The notes beneath the pieces are model-generated. The model had not been told where the DNA came from. It made no database searches and saw only the letters and a list, made by a program, of their open reading frames with translations. Below, piece by piece: positions 3,852 through 51,074 of a DNA stretch of 64,000 bases. This DNA is from Halorubrum salinum (GTDB lineage: Archaea; Halobacteriota; Halobacteria; Halobacteriales; Haloferacaceae). The translations under genes and the position numbers were made by a program. Numbering within the stretch: position 1 is the stretch's first letter; each line of letters opens with the position of its first letter. Where the stretch lies: contig NZ_JANHDO010000002.1 in the NCBI RefSeq assembly GCF_024494575.1, positions 62,001-126,000 of the forward strand, in the 5' to 3' direction.

Positions 3852-4573
3852 TGTGTGGCGGCCGCGGGACGCGTCTCGGCGGCGACGCGGAGAAGCCGCT
3901 TGTCACGGTCGCGGGGCGGCCGATGGTCGGCCGCGTGCTCGCGGCGCTGGCCGAGAGCCGGATCGAGCGGGTACACGCCGTGGTCTCGCCGCACGCGACC
4001 GCGACGCGGTCGCACCTCGCGGAGCGCGCCGCGGCGCGCGGAGACTCGGATACCGACCTCCGGATCGTCGACGCTCCGGGCGACGGGTACGTCCCCGACC
4101 TCCGGTACGCGCTTGGCGTGGGCGACGCCGCCGACGCCGAGACGGCCGCAGACGCCAAGACGGCCGCCGCCGCCGCCGACGCCGATATCGACACCGCCGA
4201 TCCCCCAGTGCTCACCGTCGCCGCGGACCTCCCGCTTCTCGACGGCGAGGCGGTCGACCGCGTGCTCGACGCCGCCGAATCGGCCGCGTCGCCCTCGCTT
4301 ACGGTCTGCGTGCCCGCGGCTCGAAAGCGCGACCTCGGCGTCAGCGCGGACGACCCGTTCGAAGTCGAGGGCCGCGCCGTTATCCCGGCGGGGATCAACG
4401 TCGTGGGCGGCCTCCGTGGCGTCGCTGGCGACGGCGCGGACGCGCCCGGCGACGACCCCCTCGACGACGCCGTCCACCTCACCGACGATCGCCGGCTCGC
4501 CGTCAACGTCAACTACCCGTCGGACGTCCGGATCGCCGAGGCGCTCCTCGCGGAGGGGCAGACGACTCGCTGA
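3836..4573 (+). CDS. cobY: GTP:adenosylcobinamide-phosphate guanylyltransferase CobY
   Basis: The archaeal enzyme that replaces bacterial CobU and guanylates adenosylcobinamide-phosphate. It has 245 residues from the GTG at 3836, which overlaps the end of cobS. The N-terminal nucleotidyltransferase signature LLMCGGRGTRL (residues 4-14) is followed by EKPLVTVAGRPM. A mid-protein Asp-rich segment ending in VAADLPLLDGEAVDRVL holds the expected metal-binding acidic residues. An Ala/Asp-rich insertion near residues 98-120 is probably haloarchaeal linker sequence. There is no kinase domain, as expected for CobY. A 36-base gap separates it from cobD. Confidence 0.9.
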   Translation: MDALLMCGGRGTRLGGDAEKPLVTVAGRPMVGRVLAALAESRIERVHAVVSPHATATRSHLAERAAARGDSDTDLRIVDAPGDGYVPDLRYALGVGDAADAETAADAKTAAAAADADIDTADPPVLTVAADLPLLDGEAVDRVLDAAESAASPSLTVCVPAARKRDLGVSADDPFEVEGRAVIPAGINVVGGLRGVAGDGADAPGDDPLDDAVHLTDDRRLAVNVNYPSDVRIAEALLAEGQTTR

Positions 4574-4609
4574 CACGCCGTTTCCACCGACTGACTCACC
4601 ACCCACGCC

Positions 4610-5725
4610 ATGCACTTCGACCGAGCCGCCGACCTCGACCGCGCGCCCCACGGGAGCAGCGACGACCCCGACCTGATCGACTTCTCGGCGAACACGAACC
4701 CGCTGGTTCCCGACGGCGTCGAGGCCGTCTACCGCGAGGCGTTCGACGCGGCGCGAACCTATCCGCCGGAGCCGCCCGCAGACTTCCGGCGGGCGGCGGC
4801 CGCGTACGTCGACTGCGATCCGGACGCGGTGGTGCCGACTCCCGGCGGGCTCGCGGCGATCCGGCTCGCCGTGTCGCTCGCGGTCGACGACGGCGACACC
4901 GCCCTCGTGCCCGCGCCGAGCTTCGGCGAGTACGCACGCGAGATCCGGCTGCAGGGCGGTGACCCCGCCTTCGTCTCCCCGGAGTCGATCCTCGACGCCG
5001 ACCCCGGGGACCACGCGCTCGCCGTCGTCTGCGCGCCGAACAACCCCACGGGAACGGACTACGACCCCGACTCGCTGGAGCGGTTCGCGGCGCGCTGTCG
5101 GGCGGCCGACACTCCACTTCTCGTCGACGAGGCGTTCCGCGGGTTCACCGACCGCCCCTCGCTCGCGGGGACCGACGGCGTGATCGTCGCCCGTTCGCTC
5201 ACGAAGCTGTTCGGGCTCCCCGGGATCAGGGCGGGTTTCGCCGTCGCGACCGGCGACCTCGGCGCGGCGCTGCGCGGCGCGCGGCGCGCGTGGAACGTAA
5301 GCGCGCCGGCGCTCGCGACCGGAGCGCACTGCATGCGACGAGACGAGTTCGTCCGAGAGACCCGCGACCGCGTGCGGACCGAGCGCGAGCGGCTTCGCGA
5401 CGCCCTCCGGACGCGGTACGCGGTCGCGCCCTCGAACGCCCCGTTCCTGCTCGTCGACGTGGGAGGTGGCGGCGATGACGGCGACGCCGCCGACCGCTCC
5501 GTCGCCGAGGTCGTCGCGACGGCCCGGGAGCGCGGCGTCGCGGTCCGCGACGCGACCACCTTCCGCGGGCTCGACTCGCACGTCCGCGTCGCGGTCCGCC
5601 GCCCGGCAGAGAACGACCGGCTGCTCGCGGCGCTCGGGGTCGACGCCGACTACGACGATGATCGCGACGCCGCCCTCGTCGACCGCGGCGACACCCCGTC
5701 TCGGGAGGTGGACGACGGTGTTTGA
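4610..5725 (+). CDS. cobD: CobD, L-threonine-O-3-phosphate decarboxylase-like PLP enzyme
   Basis: A fold-type I aminotransferase-like PLP enzyme of 371 residues. The N-terminus LIDFSANTNPL, the CAPNNPTG motif, LLVDEAF and the PLP-lysine motif SLTKLFGLPGIRAG are all present. HisC-type aminotransferases share these motifs. Placement between cobY and cbiZ argues for CobD, which makes aminopropanol phosphate for CbiB. A short Asp/Gly-rich insert occurs near residues 284-298. Its last 8 bases overlap the cbiZ GTG start. The remaining doubt is decarboxylase versus aminotransferase specificity, which sequence inspection alone cannot settle. Confidence 0.85.
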   Translation: MHFDRAADLDRAPHGSSDDPDLIDFSANTNPLVPDGVEAVYREAFDAARTYPPEPPADFRRAAAAYVDCDPDAVVPTPGGLAAIRLAVSLAVDDGDTALVPAPSFGEYAREIRLQGGDPAFVSPESILDADPGDHALAVVCAPNNPTGTDYDPDSLERFAARCRAADTPLLVDEAFRGFTDRPSLAGTDGVIVARSLTKLFGLPGIRAGFAVATGDLGAALRGARRAWNVSAPALATGAHCMRRDEFVRETRDRVRTERERLRDALRTRYAVAPSNAPFLLVDVGGGGDDGDAADRSVAEVVATARERGVAVRDATTFRGLDSHVRVAVRRPAENDRLLAALGVDADYDDDRDAALVDRGDTPSREVDDGV

Positions 5726-16263: not shown

Positions 16264-16315
16264 GGCTCCGTTGAAATCCTCAAATGGTGATACGTTCTTG
16301 GAGCCGTGCTGAATA
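16264..16315 (-). mobile_element. Orphan IS5/ISH1-like element end
   Basis: These 52 bases align without gaps to the left end of the intact IS element at 48365-48416, with about 37 of 52 positions identical by eye. They begin with the same terminal type (GGCTCCGTTGAAATCCTC) and share the internal TGCTGAATA. Sixteen of the first 18 bases or better also match the element at 34163. No matching opposite end was found between here and 17.7 kb. The end abuts the stop codon of an AT-rich gene, so it is probably a remnant of a cargo element or of an insertion into that gene. Confidence 0.6.
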
Positions 16316-16316
16316 T

Positions 16317-17375
16317 TTAGACCGTTGAGAGAAGCATTTGAATCGCTTTTGGAAGTATTACTCCTATCGAGAGCTGTGCCCACATTGTGAAGGTGGTCGG
16401 GTATTCTCTAGTGTTGTTTATGTAGTTCATTCTCATCCTAAGTTCATCATATTTTTCTTCGTCAGTTATTTCTAAATTTTGTATTTCAAACGGTTTATCG
16501 ACCATTTTACGGGCTTTTCTATCCAGTTTGGTCAGCTCCTTTCTCTTCTCTCTCTTCATAAACCAGTGAATCTGAGCTAACCCGTAACCCACCAAACCGA
16601 TAGCCAGCAACCAGGCAAGAGTAAACAACAATTGCTGTACGAATCCGATACCGTACTGAATACTCGACACACCGCTAACGATACTCGGACCATACAGTGC
16701 TATTGCGGAGGCAATCAGTCCAAGCATTAAGAAATAGTAGGCAGATTTCATCAGCTCTCCTACAGGCCTTAAACCGCCTAGTCCTTCAGGATCGAGGAAA
16801 TTGATCTTAAAATCGGTTTTTCTGATTTTGTGTGGGAAGAACAGAAGTATTCCGGCATAGGTCGCTAGGAATTCGGAGATGATTACGCCGTGACCCAAGG
16901 GAAGAAGTATAAATACTCCGAACAGTTCAGGCATCCCGCCCGTCTGGAGAACCCTGTTTATTCCTTGGTTTATTCCGAACTGATAGATTGCGTTTATTAA
17001 GAAGGCTGAGTATAGCCCAAGTTGAAGCCATTTAGGGGCCAAGTTGTCGAAGGCCTCAGGCTTAGAAGTACGAGACTCTACATCGATATGCTCCAAAACC
17101 TGCCGGTAACGCCTATGAAGATAAACGATCACGAAAGGTGTGACTAAACTCAATGAGGGATTTATGAGTGCTGACGGATTAGTAAAATAAACTATCTTGT
17201 AACCCATCAACATTCTCGAACCCTGAACAGCGACAACCCCAGCAAAGACAACCACCAAACCGTAGAAAATCACTGGGTGTGGCATAAACGAAAACCTGTC
17301 TTCAAGTCGGTCATAACCCAACCAGTACAGAACGTCCCCGATTAACGAGTAATCCGCCCTATCTGAACTGGCCAT
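16317..17375 (-). CDS. Uncharacterised AT-rich multi-pass membrane protein
   Basis: I do not recognise this family. It has 352 residues from the ATG at 17375, supported by a TATA-like aaatttttta 30 bases upstream. About six hydrophobic helices are visible (for example FYGLVVVFAGVVAVQ, GVFILLPLGHGVI and LLFTLAWLLAIGLVGYG). A basic cytoplasmic loop near residues 250-280 (FMKREKRKELTKLDRKARKM) precedes the last helix. It is far richer in A+T and in Lys/Ile/Asn than every neighbour, indicating lateral origin. Its stop codon is one base from an IS end. Its function is unknown; it interrupts the iron-box cluster. Confidence 0.8.
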   Translation of the reverse strand: MASSDRADYSLIGDVLYWLGYDRLEDRFSFMPHPVIFYGLVVVFAGVVAVQGSRMLMGYKIVYFTNPSALINPSLSLVTPFVIVYLHRRYRQVLEHIDVESRTSKPEAFDNLAPKWLQLGLYSAFLINAIYQFGINQGINRVLQTGGMPELFGVFILLPLGHGVIISEFLATYAGILLFFPHKIRKTDFKINFLDPEGLGGLRPVGELMKSAYYFLMLGLIASAIALYGPSIVSGVSSIQYGIGFVQQLLFTLAWLLAIGLVGYGLAQIHWFMKREKRKELTKLDRKARKMVDKPFEIQNLEITDEEKYDELRMRMNYINNTREYPTTFTMWAQLSIGVILPKAIQMLLSTV

Positions 17376-17399
17376 ACAAGCCACGTCACTACCTATCCA

Positions 17400-17410
17400 G
17401 TAAAAAATTT
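17400..17410 (-). promoter_or_regulatory. TATA-like box of the AT-rich membrane gene
   Basis: On the minus strand the run aaattttttact is centred about 30 bases before the ATG at 17375. The spacing fits a leaderless archaeal transcript and was used to choose that start rather than the longer open frame. Confidence 0.45.
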
Positions 17411-17660
17411 CACATACTGATGCTTTCAGGGAAAATCCCTGCAGCATGATCGAGAGCCTGCAATCGGTGCGCCTCCTAGGGACGGAGAGCGGTGAAACCA
17501 CGAACCGCGAGCTGGGGAGGCGTGAGGAGCGGTCGCGGTCGGATGGGACTCCAGAGTCGGGGCTTTAGCCGTGGTTCCGATACAGCCAACGGCGTCGCAT
17601 CGATCAGATGGTGGTTGAAGTCGTCAGCCCGACAACGGCGGCACCCGAGTCATCAGCATG
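17411..17660. other. Intergenic transition zone without recognisable gene
   Basis: Composition changes from AT-rich to GC-rich at about 17455. No convincing ORF, RNA gene or second IS end is seen. This is where the opposite end of the element ending at 16264 would be expected, so it may be a rearranged junction. Confidence 0.4.
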
Positions 17661-33909: not shown

Positions 33910-34161
33910 ATGGCCCTCACGGTCCCCGCGTTCGGCGGCGTCCCCGGCGGTCCCGAGCTGTTGATCCTCCTGATCATCTTCGTCCTCCTCTTCGGCGTTC
34001 CCGTCGCCGTCATCGCAGGCGTGGTACTTATCCTCAAACTGCGCTCCGGCGGCGAGGAGGCGGACGCCGACCGTATCGCGGAGCTGGAGGCGGAGGTCGA
34101 GCGGCTCCGCGAGCAGGTTGACGACGGGCCGGACGAGCGCGACGACGGCGATCGAGTGTAA
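33910..34161 (+). CDS. Small membrane protein with coiled-coil tail (TatA-like N-terminus)
   Basis: An 83-residue protein. MALTVPAFGGVPGGPELLILLIIFVLLFG resembles the start of haloarchaeal TatA proteins, but a second hydrophobic stretch (VPVAVIAGVVLILKL) replaces the usual amphipathic helix, and an acidic coiled coil follows (RIAELEAEVERLREQVDD). It is therefore not clearly a Tat translocase subunit. The ATG at 33910 lies about 29 bases after a TATA-like gttttag. The stop codon TAA (34159-34161) falls inside the 8-bp target duplication of the mobile element that begins at 34163. Confidence 0.62.
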   Translation: MALTVPAFGGVPGGPELLILLIIFVLLFGVPVAVIAGVVLILKLRSGGEEADADRIAELEAEVERLREQVDDGPDERDDGDRV

Positions 34162-34162
34162 T

Positions 34163-34218
34163 GGCTCTGTTGAAATCCTCTTCTTCAGACACATTATCGA
34201 CTGAAACAGCCGGTTGCT
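34163..34218 (+). repeat. Left terminal inverted repeat of the cargo element
   Basis: Begins GGCTCTGTTGAAATCCT and continues to the subterminal block ATTATCGACTGAAACAG and CGGTTGCT, all of which recur inverted at 35798-35853. Confidence 0.85.
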
Positions 34219-34227
34219 GAAGGCTGC

Positions 34228-34452
34228 TCACCGACCCTGTGTGATGAACGATGGGCTGACGAAAACTGGTATGGTCCCAACAAAGAACACGCTCAGTATC
34301 ACAGGTGATGAAGGCAGAACGGAGCCAAGTCCAACCACCGAGAAAGCGCCAACAACAACGGAGAGAATAATTAAGAACGCTCCTGTTTGCCACCCTTCAA
34401 TGAAATCCACTGCGCTCTGTTCAATTACACACCGCTTACAGAGAAGTGTCAA
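34228..34452 (-). CDS. Possible small membrane protein within the cargo element
   Basis: A 74-residue frame with two hydrophobic helices (AFLIILSVVVGAFSVVGLGSVL and SPVILSVFFVGTIPVFVS) and a short Cys-containing N-terminus. The surrounding DNA is moderately AT-rich, so an open frame of this hydrophobic character is less likely to be chance than in the GC-rich background. It is divergent from the transporter gene. It could be a remnant of a longer gene. No family is recognised. Confidence 0.42.
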   Translation of the reverse strand: MTLLCKRCVIEQSAVDFIEGWQTGAFLIILSVVVGAFSVVGLGSVLPSSPVILSVFFVGTIPVFVSPSFITQGR

Positions 34453-34669
34453 ATAATAATTGTGGTGATCGGAATATTCCCTGTATGCAGCACGGTCTCA
34501 ACGAACTATCAGCGACCAAGGCTTTCGACAAACCCGGCTATGCAGATCAGCGTCGATAGTAATTTTTCAGGCTGGGTGAGGAAGTCGATGGTTGCATAGG
34601 GGTGAAGAGATATCCCATAATTCTGCCAGTAGGCGAAGCTTTCTATCCGCGGACCAGCGCGATATTCGT

Positions 34670-35647
34670 ATGAGCGTCAGTGGTGGAATTTCGCGGGCGG
34701 CACAGGTCGCGAGCAAGTACTTCGTCGTCTGGGTGATCGCGGCTGCGGGCCTCGCGCTCGTTTATCCGACCTCGTTTGTCCCGGTGCTGGACTACGTCAA
34801 CCCCCTGCTTGGAATCATCATGCTCGGGATGGGATTGACACTCCAGCCCGAGGACTTCCAACGGCTCGTCGAGCGCCCCGGTGATGTCGGTATCGGCGCG
34901 GTCACGCAGTGGCTCGTGATGCCGCTGGCGGCGTACGCACTCTACCTCCTCTTCGACCTGCCGGACGCAATCGGCGTCGGGCTCATCCTCGTCGGCGCGG
35001 CGCCCGGCGGCACGGCGTCGAACGTGATGACGTACCTCGGCCGCGGTGACGTCGCACTTTCCGTTGCCATCACCACGGTGACGACGCTTGCAGCACCCAT
35101 CGTGATGCCCGCGTGGACGCTGTTCATCCTCGGAGAGAGCATCGACGTGACGTTCATGCAGATGTTCACCAGCATCGTCCAGATCGTCATCATCCCGGTC
35201 GTGCTCGGGTTCGGGATTCGGTACGTTCTCGACCGCTACTCGCCGAAGGCCGCGGAGGTCGGCGTCGACGTCTTCCCCGTGATCAGCGTCGCCGCCATCG
35301 TCGCCATCGTTGCGGGGGTCGTCGGTGCGAACGTCGACAACATCCTCACTGCGGGTGCGCTCGTGCTGGCGGCAGTCGTCCTCCACAACGGCGTCGGCCT
35401 CGGTGCAGGCTACGGCGTCGGCCGCGCGTTCGGCATGTCCACGGACCGCGTCCGGACGACCACGTTCGAGGTCGGCCTCCAGAACAGTGGTCTCGCGGTG
35501 GCGCTCGCCACGTCCCTGTTTGACCCGGCAGCCGCGCTCATTCCCGCGCTGTTCAGTGTCTGGCACAACGTCAGCGGTCCCGCGCTCGCGAGCTACTTTA
35601 CGTGGAGCGACGACCGGACCGCTAGCGGTCCCGTAACGGCTGATTGA
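34670..35647 (+). CDS. BASS-family (bile acid:sodium symporter-like) transporter carried by the mobile element
   Basis: A membrane transporter of 325 residues with about ten helices. Family motifs include GIIMLGMGLTLQPEDF, VLVGAAPGGTASNVMTYLGRGDVALSVAITT (crossover region) and FEVGLQNSGLAVALA. BASS proteins move organic anions with sodium; in microbes substrates include pantoate or keto acids, so the substrate here is open. The ATG at 34670 starts the conserved part; an upstream in-frame start would add 26 unlike residues. It lies wholly inside the element and is GC-typical, suggesting capture from a haloarchaeal donor. Confidence 0.85.
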   Translation: MSVSGGISRAAQVASKYFVVWVIAAAGLALVYPTSFVPVLDYVNPLLGIIMLGMGLTLQPEDFQRLVERPGDVGIGAVTQWLVMPLAAYALYLLFDLPDAIGVGLILVGAAPGGTASNVMTYLGRGDVALSVAITTVTTLAAPIVMPAWTLFILGESIDVTFMQMFTSIVQIVIIPVVLGFGIRYVLDRYSPKAAEVGVDVFPVISVAAIVAIVAGVVGANVDNILTAGALVLAAVVLHNGVGLGAGYGVGRAFGMSTDRVRTTTFEVGLQNSGLAVALATSLFDPAAALIPALFSVWHNVSGPALASYFTWSDDRTASGPVTAD

Positions 35648-35797
35648 TCGCTGCTGGCGAGTGAGCAGACACCCAGATATTTTCAAATAACGTAGACCAC
35701 CTCGCCGCTACCTTCTTGTCTGAAGACAGTACTGCGATTCATACTGTGTGTACGCTTCTATTGAGAGTGTCAACAATCAAATCAGTTCGCACCTATG

Positions 35798-35853
35798 AGC
35801 AACCGTCTGTTTCAGTCGATAATATGTCAAGATAATAGGGTTTCAACAGAGCC
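35798..35853 (-). repeat. Right terminal inverted repeat of the cargo element
   Basis: The mirror of 34163-34218, ending in tttcaacagagcc. It is followed directly by the right copy of the target duplication, AGTATAAT. The 150 bases between the transporter stop and this repeat show no gene. Confidence 0.85.
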
Positions 35854-35897
35854 AGTATAATCGACTGGGATGGCGGCGCGGTCTCCGCACCGGTCGT

Positions 35898-48356: not shown

Positions 48357-48571
48357 CGCCGTTTGGCCTTGTTGAAACCCTCATTCGATGATAGGTTTCA
48401 GCAGTCCTGCTGAATAGAGGGCGCGTCTCTCTCAGAGCGGTATCTCCAGTCCCTCCTGTTCCAGCAATTTAGGTATCTGTCCGAGTTCGAAGCGAATCCG
48501 CTACGTACGTTCGCGCCTCCTCCTTCGCCAGTCTACTCAAAAATGCGGAGGAACGATCCTTGACCTCGGGC

Positions 48572-49834
48572 TTATCTTCCGTTGCCGTTCGAGGGGAACG
48601 CGTCCGCAGCGTCCTGTGCCGCTTCCTCGGTGCAGTAGAAGGCCACGAAGCTGATGGCGTACTTGCCGATGTTCTGGGCGGTGACCTCGCCATCCTCGGC
48701 GACTAGTTCCTGAACCGCCAGTTCCCGACCGGCCTTGACCACTGCGTAGACGGTGCAGTAGTCCGTGCCGAAGGTCGCGGAGACGGGCTCGAACGCCTCG
48801 TCCTCTTTGCTCTCGAAGCTCCCCGGCTCGTAGGTCACGAGGCTGCCGTCCCCGTCCTCAAAGACGAAGTCGTAGTCGACGCACTCGTCATCCACTTCTT
48901 CGGTGCAGGCGAACTCGTACTTCGCGAGGAGTTCGTCGCTGGTACATTCGTCGCAGGTTTCGTCGATGATGGTGCCGGTCGCCATATCGCCGTTGGTGTA
49001 GCTGTAGGCGTTCCCGTTGAACGTCATGTCGAGCGTGGCAGTCCGGCTTCCGTTGCTCTTGTCGAGAACGACGATGGCGTCGTCGGCGCGGCTGGAGCCG
49101 ACGAGATCGCCCGTCCCAGCAGCGCGGACTGCCAGCCCGGTCAAAGACGACCCGGCGTCAGTCCCGACGACGGTCGCTGCGATGTTCCCGTTCCCATCGG
49201 GGTTCTGGTAGTCGATGGTGTACAGGGTGTCGTTGTTGTTCGTGTGGAGGAACATCGTCCCCGTCGAGTCGACGACGATGTCCGCCCCGTTGACGGTCGC
49301 CCCGTCGATCGTCCCAACCTCGGTCGCCACGGGCGGCGATACGTTGCCGTCAACCGTGTACAGCTTGTTCGTGTTGTTACTCGCGACGTACAGGTTACCA
49401 TCGAGGCCGTACGCGGCCAGGACAGACAGCGTCGGCAGGCCGTTAATCGCTCCCTTGTCGGAAAACGAATCGCCACTGACGTCGTACTCGCCGAGGTGGG
49501 TCGTGTTCCGGTCAACGAACATCACCGTCTCGCCGTCCGGGGTCGCGGCGATGGCGTCGACGTTCTGGAAGTTCCCGCCGATGGATGTCACCTGGGTGAG
49601 TACAGCCTCACCGGCCGTGCTATCGAGGTCGACGCTGAACAGCTTGGTGACGTTCTCGGCATCGACCGAGTGGCTGAGATAGATTGTCTCGGTCACCGTA
49701 GCGTGTGAACTGGCGGCCGCACTCCCAGCGAATGCCGGTACTCCGAACGCCCCGATACCTCCGATAACCGCTGCGGTCTTCAGTACGTTCCGACGCTTCA
49801 TCCCGTTTCCCGGCGTAAGTTCTTCTGCTGTCAT
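48572..49834 (-). CDS. Tat-exported beta-propeller-like protein with Cys-rich C-terminus (IS cargo)
   Basis: A 420-residue predicted exported protein. The start at 49834 gives a short lead then the twin-arginine segment MKRRNVLKTAAVIGGIGAFG and a cleavage-like SAAASSHA. The mature part has repeated beta-type units (TLYTIDYQNPDGNGN, KLYTVDGNVSPP, KLFSVDLDSTAGEA) resembling a propeller. The last ~130 residues contain seven cysteines (ETCDECTSDE, ACTEEVDDECVDY, DYCTVY, FYCTEEAA), which may form disulfides outside the cell. Function is unknown. It lies inside the IS element and has a distinctive promoter with four TGTACA sites. Confidence 0.78.
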   Translation of the reverse strand: MTAEELTPGNGMKRRNVLKTAAVIGGIGAFGVPAFAGSAAASSHATVTETIYLSHSVDAENVTKLFSVDLDSTAGEAVLTQVTSIGGNFQNVDAIAATPDGETVMFVDRNTTHLGEYDVSGDSFSDKGAINGLPTLSVLAAYGLDGNLYVASNNTNKLYTVDGNVSPPVATEVGTIDGATVNGADIVVDSTGTMFLHTNNNDTLYTIDYQNPDGNGNIAATVVGTDAGSSLTGLAVRAAGTGDLVGSSRADDAIVVLDKSNGSRTATLDMTFNGNAYSYTNGDMATGTIIDETCDECTSDELLAKYEFACTEEVDDECVDYDFVFEDGDGSLVTYEPGSFESKEDEAFEPVSATFGTDYCTVYAVVKAGRELAVQELVAEDGEVTAQNIGKYAISFVAFYCTEEAAQDAADAFPSNGNGR

Positions 49835-49905
49835 TGTAGTCACTATTCGTGAAGAGCATCAGCCCCCGTCGTAAGGACAACCCCACCGCCAGGTAGGTCG
49901 CTCTC

Positions 49906-49971
49906 TGTACAACTGTACACCTCCTCACAGTATAAACCTATGTACACACGGTTATATGCTAACGGTGTACA
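49906..49971. promoter_or_regulatory. Four TGTACA palindromes around the cargo gene promoter
   Basis: The 6-bp palindrome TGTACA occurs at 49906, 49914, 49941 and 49966. The first two are separated by 2 bases, and the third lies just upstream of the TATA-like box (GTTTATA on the minus strand, 49931-49937). Clustered copies on both sides of the TATA box look like an operator array for a repressor or activator. The rest of 49844-50065 shows no gene. Confidence 0.5.
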
Positions 49972-50065
49972 ACGTCTCTACACTCATCTGGCTACGGAAA
50001 CCTCCGGAACGGGTACTCCGCTGCTGACTTTACCCTCTGTATTCAGCAGCCCCTTCCTCTCGAAA

Positions 50066-50935
50066 TTATGGACAGTCGGACTCCTCGTGTGAAATAGCGA
50101 GGCTTCGCTCCAGATTGTGAACGATGCACTTGATAACGAGTTCGCGGAACTGCTTCCACCAGAGACGCGACCGCACGAAGGCCCCGAATTTCTGTTTGAT
50201 CGCCGCGTTGACTGTCTCGTTCATGTTCCGTCTGTGGTAGAGATCGTTGTCCAACCGTGTATTCCACGCCTTGTGGAGTGAGGTGAACTCACGATGCTTG
50301 ATTAGTGGTCGAATATCATGCTCACGGGCGAGCCGCCGAAGTTTCTGGTCGTCGTATCCCTTGTCACCGGTCAACACCGCGATGGACTGTCTGTTCCGTT
50401 TCACTACCTGTGGCGCGATTTGCGTATCGTGCTTCCGCGTTGTGGTCACGTGAATATCGAGAACGGCGTTGGTCTTTGTATCGACCAACAGTGTTGTCTT
50501 CAACTGCTGGATGGTGAGGTTTGTTCGCTTCGTGTAGTGAGTTGAAGCATGAGCCCGTTCAAACCCGGATGCATCGATGCCGGTGACCCCGTTCAGTGGC
50601 AAGTCCGCGAGCGAGACGTTCAGTAACACCCGCCAGACGGCCATCTCCAGGCGGCCGAACGCTTTGCAGAGCGTCGAGGGTGCAGGGATCGACTCAAGGC
50701 CGAGGGCCTCACGGATGCGAGGCATCTCGATGAGCTCATCAACGAGGTCGCGGTACGTTGTCGTCTTCTTCACCTTGAGACAGAGCAGGACAACATGTTG
50801 CCGGAGCGTGAACCGCTTCCGTGAATAGCGTGTCGAGAACCGTGCCACAGCACGGCGAGCCAGCACCATAGCCCGTTCAACGAATCGAAGAAGTCGTGAC
50901 TTTGGGAGAGCATCCATCTTCCTCCAGCTACTCAC
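50066..50935 (-). CDS. IS5-family DDE transposase
   Basis: A complete 289-residue transposase. The three catalytic acidic residues are visible in context: GIDASGFERAH, AVLTGDKGYDDQKLR and NMNETVNAAIKQKFG, the last being the Y/N-E-x6-K-type signature of IS4/IS5 enzymes. An N-terminal helical DNA-binding region (RFTLRQHVVLLCLKVKKTTTYRDLVDEL) precedes it. No frameshift or stop interrupts it, so the element may still be active. Enzymes of this kind could also mobilise the transposase-less element at 34163-35853, whose ends are similar. Confidence 0.92.
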   Translation of the reverse strand: MSSWRKMDALPKSRLLRFVERAMVLARRAVARFSTRYSRKRFTLRQHVVLLCLKVKKTTTYRDLVDELIEMPRIREALGLESIPAPSTLCKAFGRLEMAVWRVLLNVSLADLPLNGVTGIDASGFERAHASTHYTKRTNLTIQQLKTTLLVDTKTNAVLDIHVTTTRKHDTQIAPQVVKRNRQSIAVLTGDKGYDDQKLRRLAREHDIRPLIKHREFTSLHKAWNTRLDNDLYHRRNMNETVNAAIKQKFGAFVRSRLWWKQFRELVIKCIVHNLERSLAISHEESDCP

Positions 50936-51074
50936 CAGTCATGTTTGTCAGCAAGGGTTTCAACAAGGCCCGCCGTTTGCAACGCGGGCCGCGCGCTCCG
51001 TGACTGTGACTCGCGAGATCCGCCCCCGGAAGCGCCGCCGACGGGTCTTTCTCCCCGCCGGGTGATGTCGAGGC

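Follow-up and report, generated by a model that had tools for sequence, protein, structure and literature searches.

Genes and boundaries of the element

The window, i.e. the whole stretch of 64,000 nucleotides that was analysed, holds at 34163-35853 an element with only two genes bounded by inverted ends (Table 1). The larger of these is an intact gene for a BASS (SBF) transporter: its 325-aa product matches the Pfam SBF model with E=4e-43 (147.7 bits, cut-off 24.3) and is thereby a member of that family, as claimed in a preliminary description of the locus, and it also recovers the solved BASS homologues 8oyf/3zuy with E=4e-73. With the PanS model NF047939 it scores 267 bits (E=2e-79), under the cut-off of 400, and is thus not classed as PanS. 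The smaller gene had been put down as a possible membrane protein; it is real, encodes 66 aa and has homologues in three congeners. A tblastn search with an IS5 transposase found none inside the element, in agreement with the earlier reading. To the left lie an Nre gene and a small membrane ORF and to the right a DUF7130 gene.

Table 1. Positions in the window of the element, its parts and the autonomous insertion sequence
Feature	Position	Strand	Remarks
Transposase-free cassette with BASS	34163-35853		1691 bp; borders exact as first described
Left target duplication copy, AGTGTAAT	34155..34162	n/a	Flank octamer
Left terminal end, type A, tip GGCTCTGTTGAAATCCT	34163..34227	+	A-end profile E=8.8e-21 in window
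66-aa membrane-protein gene, apparent cargo of old mini-cassette	34228..34428	-	GTG start; homologues in L066, L067, L069
Decayed inner B-type end, apparently once right end of mini-cassette	34479..34535	-	B3 profile
BASS (SBF) transporter gene, 325 aa, intact	34670..35647	+	ATG 34670, stop 35647
Right terminal end, inverted, likewise type A	35788..35853	-	A-end profile E=1.7e-13
Right target duplication copy, AGTATAAT	35854..35861	n/a	Flank octamer
Autonomous IS5-family element	48365..50970	-	Perfect TSD CGCCGTTT; passenger 48572-49843, transposase 50066-50935

When the left end is read inward from 34163 and compared with the reverse complement of the right end, read from 35853, the two are identical at 48 of 56 positions, the same count that had previously been made by eye; 2000 random pairs of 56-mers from the region gave a mean of 15 and a maximum of 28. 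The 8-bp target duplication outside these ends is likewise confirmed, with agreement at 7/8 positions and a single mismatch. The flanking genes are conserved in congeners, and a query made of the joined flanks showed that in seven other species of the genus they are adjacent, with neither an insert nor ends between them. Relatives of the BASS gene occur in 18 congeners (partial in G029), in other contexts, with best DNA identities of 92% (G035) and 87% (G030), and the DNA homology to these free copies begins at about 34608. For 17 of these 18 genes the retrieved surroundings were searched with the end profiles, which detected no cassette ends. Given that the flanks are empty in relatives and that BASS occurs elsewhere without ends, the gene must have reached this site together with its ends, which upholds the earlier claim that the region moved as a unit. 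A search of plasmids by distant blastn returned only transporter genes, with no match covering at least 80% of the cassette.

The ends fit the same profile as those of transposase-bearing elements, and the combination of IS-type inverted ends, cargo without a transposase and an 8-bp duplication places the element among the mobile insertion cassettes; this label, too, had been rightly given, though the element is nonetheless neither isolated nor simple. At 1691 bp and with an intact 325-aa gene it is not a MITE (under about 500 bp and non-coding), and while its duplication has the 8-bp length of the IS5 family/ISH1-type insertion sequences, it lacks a transposase of its own. Values of dN/dS of 0.07-0.11 indicate that the BASS family is under purifying selection. 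Since the gene is also intact, its product is probably functional, and we predict that it is a working sodium-coupled importer of an organic anion; at a guess the substrate would be pantoate-like.

Sister cassettes and their cargo

Searching with the ends and listing the genes between them, a check that had been suggested earlier, uncovered many other elements with the same ends and different cargo. With these copies found, and with the transporter of relatives placed elsewhere and free of the repeats, neither of the observations named beforehand as counting against the cassette was made. The host genome contains 18 matches to GGCTCTGTTGAAA with at most one mismatch (0 to the reversed control), and the cassette has matches in 49 of the 52 genomes of the genus, in many cases to its ends. 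In stretches of congeners around such ends 40 inverted pairs show a flank match of at least 7/8, against 22 of 24,362 under random pairing. A 27-mer taken from the A end located 117 stretches in named genomes, from which 27 further distinct TSD-flanked elements were obtained; among the genera listed are Halorubrum, Halopenitus, Natrinema, Halorussus, Haloferax, Halobellus, Haloplanus, Halonotius, Halostagnicola, Halohasta, Halorientalis, Haloterrigena, Natrialba, Halarchaeum and Natronoglomus. Across the order (392 genomes) the A end is present in 112 genomes belonging to 44 of 95 genera, with 0 control matches. A viral vehicle for the cassettes was considered and dropped, the exact 27-mer having no match in IMG/VR. 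Our catalogue, a targeted survey of elements that have such tips together with 8-bp duplications, at loci not chosen at random, comprises 65 distinct elements of 276-3025 bp, with duplications identical at 8/8 positions in 57 and at 7/8 in eight. Transposases are absent from 54 of the 65, and 29 of these 54 hold an ORF of at least 100 aa.

Nearly all ends have the tip GGCTCTGTTGAAAYCCT in common; inward of it they fall into types A, B1-B3 and C, and a transposase-side type, T. Cassettes mostly combine A with B or C with B3. Most autonomous elements are T-A, their passenger lying next to the A end, and the BASS cassette has an A end on both sides. In genome G017 a 462-bp cassette with a 69-aa membrane ORF is present in two identical copies at unrelated sites, which points to recent movement without a transposase of its own. 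Just inside the tip, A ends such as those at L155 7705 and window 34185-34208 contain a dyad; it reads TTCAGACA...TGTCTGAA in the best copies and is possibly a transposase site or else a hairpin/terminator. Elsewhere in the window a solitary B3-type end (16264-16316, E=1.8e-15) for which no partner end was found within reach borders a low-GC stretch containing a 394-aa ORF (16317-17501). GC content drops to 0.51-0.60 over the long segment 54000-64000, from about 0.70 elsewhere, and this segment was likely acquired.

To characterize the cargo we compared the non-transposase ORFs of at least 100 aa in the catalogue with a background of nearby GC3-filtered ORFs. A membrane segment is predicted in 33 of 46 cargo ORFs versus 41 of 130 background ORFs (odds ratio 5.5, Fisher p=4e-6), a figure that is indicative, given a rough predictor, homology among some of the cargoes and loci that were not randomly chosen. 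Among the cargo proteins that could be identified are rhomboid proteases, an HtpX-like protease and, in an element whose TSD matches at 7/8 or less, a CAAX-type protease; others are Ig-like lipoproteins, a RidA-like protein and a HicA-type pair. The HicA-type toxin gene lies with a DUF7387 gene in a 759-bp transposase-free cassette with a perfect TSD (L157 2986-3744), and the two genes are a possible toxin-antitoxin pair. Related pairs of cargo genes have dN/dS values of about 0.2-0.4, and a comparison of ten cargo proteins with PADLOC gave nothing convincing for a known defence function. The preliminary description had seen in the BASS cassette a route for spreading solute transporters. This is overstated, for no other cargo of a transporter family was found, and small membrane proteins or lipoproteins make up most of the cargo. 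One T-A element of G017 without a clear TSD (L318 6791-8594) carries a 233-aa PGF-motif surface protein beside an L131-type transposase. G017 is probably Halorubrum lacusprofundi and the passenger Hlac_3088, which has been described as a transposon passenger, exceeds the S-layer gene in expression at one time point during infection and has been proposed to hinder virus attachment (PMC10544981).

Probable composite origin and candidate transposases

The two sides of the BASS cassette are unlike in structure: the left is a recognisable mini-cassette with a decayed inner end, and the right has an A end only. The inner end, in the orientation of a right end, matches the B3 profile with E=9.6e-8 in 2 kb and 3.1e-6 in the whole window. 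Related mini-cassettes surround the same small gene elsewhere; one in G004 has the A end in common, and one in G018 retains an intact B end at the corresponding place. Because of this decayed end and these counterparts we regard the left 370 bp as an old mini-cassette, and the whole looks like a composite of this with a captured transporter gene, a structure that had been missed before. The dN/dS of the 66-aa gene is 0.26 against a free homologue and 0.47-0.61 against the cassette homologues, and selection on the copy in the window looks relaxed.

Joining of cassettes followed by use of the outer ends is documented in sister elements. The A-A element L174 6636-8506 consists of two cassettes joined at their B ends with a single duplication, GAATCTTT, found outside only; its bases 1-756 correspond to a complete cassette that stands alone in Halohasta litorea (L228, 94%) and bases 757-1871 to one that stands alone in a record of Halobellus captivus (L211, 93%). 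In a similar way F20 holds an E25-like cassette. Since sister elements show such joining, fusion is the best reading for the BASS cassette as well. On the BASS side no second decayed inner B end was detected, and a fusion there with a second cassette is a putative step, the decayed end on the left being the one observed. The events may have taken the following order: a mini-cassette with its A end, 66-aa gene and B end (34163 to ~34535) would have come to lie beside the BASS gene and another A end, inverted; decay of the inner B end would have followed, leaving the two outermost A ends to delimit one unit of 1.69 kb; an ISH1-type IS5-family transposase acting in trans would have recognised the common tip at both ends; and the unit would have been inserted between two conserved chromosomal genes with an 8-bp duplication.

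As the source of the transposase the preliminary description proposed the autonomous element at 48365-50970, stating that its ends resemble those of the cassette. Its transposase scores 214 bits with the IS5 model NF033579 (cut-off 140), and its passenger is a 423-aa Tat-type secreted protein with no Pfam match; in a broad sense the element is part of the same system as the cassette. That the cassette is a client of this element is unlikely in our view: the sole transposase of this group in the host genome is indeed the one it encodes, and a tip motif and the 8-bp TSD are common to both, but its ends agree with those of the cassette at just 22-23/56 positions, with no likeness past the tip, which itself differs (GGCCTTG versus GGCTCTG). 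We therefore dropped it as a match for these ends; and because its left end is of type B3, the C-B3 cassettes may suit it better. The A end of an autonomous element of another genome (L131 3827-5244), whose transposase (3879-4700) is a DDE_Tnp_1 protein, matches the left end of the cassette at 48/56 positions. Hence, judged by their ends, such A-ended IS5 elements of congeners would be better partners, and none of them is present in the host genome. Two further genomes with cassette ends, the closed genomes G042 and G022 (the latter a single contig with 13 exact tip matches), have no detectable transposase of this group. Their cassettes would be orphaned, as expected for hitch-hikers that outlive or out-travel their drivers.

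Autonomous IS5 elements of congeners carry passengers themselves, next to the A end, which makes it conceivable that the cassette is a degenerate transposon, i.e. such an element with BASS as passenger and its transposase gene deleted in place. We consider this improbable, as the autonomous elements are T-A and the cassette A-A, no remnant of a transposase was found, and the left third corresponds to another mini-cassette, a known one whose own right end has decayed. Still less probable is that two unrelated solitary ends flank a resident transporter that never moved as a unit. Solitary ends do occur, as at 16264 of the window, and those of the cassette are old enough to differ at 8/56 positions; however, flank agreement of at least 7/8, as seen outside these two ends, is expected in 0.09% of random end pairings, and the adjacency of the flanking genes without BASS in congeners already contradicts it. 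IS6 elements likewise make 8-bp duplications and have a tip, GGnnCTGTTG, similar to that of the cassettes, and the 8-bp TSD together with the GGCTCTGTTG tip at one stage suggested an IS6-family origin, but an IS6/IS26-type translocatable unit is hardly credible and was dropped, since the transposases between such ends are IS5-family DDE_Tnp_1 proteins and no IS6 transposase was seen among the 65 elements.

In light of the above, region 34163-35853 is most likely a composite, transposase-free mobile insertion cassette moved in trans by an ISH1-type IS5-family transposase. Against this reading stand the one mismatch in the TSD, the failure to detect a second inner end on the BASS side, the fact that the empty sites come from other species, and the differing ends of the sole host transposase of the group. 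Both the movement in trans and the assignment of the acting transposase are deduced from the ends, and a benefit of the cargo to host or element may be presumed. Of the preliminary interpretation, unit movement and the class of cassette stand, and the match to the element at 48365 does not.

Relation to known mobile elements

The set of cassettes to which this element belongs is widespread among haloarchaea and little described, with a cargo made up mostly of genes for membrane or cell-surface proteins; in the open-access literature we found no paper on such a set. As cargo cassettes without a transposase are rarely annotated, much gene mobility of haloarchaea may escape genome descriptions. 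A tentative and more far-reaching possibility is that they constitute a distributed cassette system of very many small IS5-tipped units that are served in trans by rarer transposases, specialise in membrane and surface cargo and can grow by end-to-end fusion, a transposon-based counterpart of integron cassettes for remodelling the surface, perhaps under pressure from viruses. If the set is active, fusion of neighbouring cassettes followed by transposition via the outer ends would be a simple way to move single chromosomal genes among haloarchaea, and there would be a testable tie between mobile DNA and changes of the cell surface, virus receptors included.

Among known systems, the mobile insertion cassettes MIC231/IS231 of Bacillus cereus consist of IS ends around cargo without a transposase (PMC2266710, PMC6542083). 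They resemble the BASS cassette in these respects, in their expected movement in trans and in having autonomous relatives with passengers beside one end. However, MIC231 belongs to the IS4 family and to Bacillus, whereas the BASS-type cassettes are of the IS5 family, haloarchaeal and built from two distinct end types, and differ further in their frequent membrane-protein cargo and end-to-end fusion. Closer in host are ISH2 of Halobacterium and the ISH2-type MITE of Haloquadratum, which lack a transposase, contain a short ORF and are moved in trans; ISH2 with part of ISH8A was once observed moving as a cassette with one common duplication (PMC3119063, PMC10264941). ISH2 is thus, like the BASS cassette, a haloarchaeal element with an internal ORF and no transposase, but it is about 520-530 bp long, with ISH8 (IS4-type) ends, 10-bp duplications and one ORF family, in contrast to the IS5-type ends, 8-bp duplications, many cargo families and sizes of up to 3 kb of the BASS-type cassettes. 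For ISH1 the duplication length is given as 8 bp (PMC10264941). In TIME-COMP elements a gene lies between two non-autonomous elements, and the entire structure is moved by the outer ends (PMC13367494, PMC4133298); these are Tn3-family elements of bacteria with 5-bp duplications that usually keep their inner ends, unlike the BASS cassette with its decayed inner end. Transporter ISs, defined as ISs with passenger genes (PMC3129680), are represented here by the autonomous T-A partners, from which the BASS cassette differs in having no transposase. The same distinction applies to the Hlac_3088 element, which like L318 has a transposase beside a surface-protein passenger and, unlike the BASS cassette, is autonomous.
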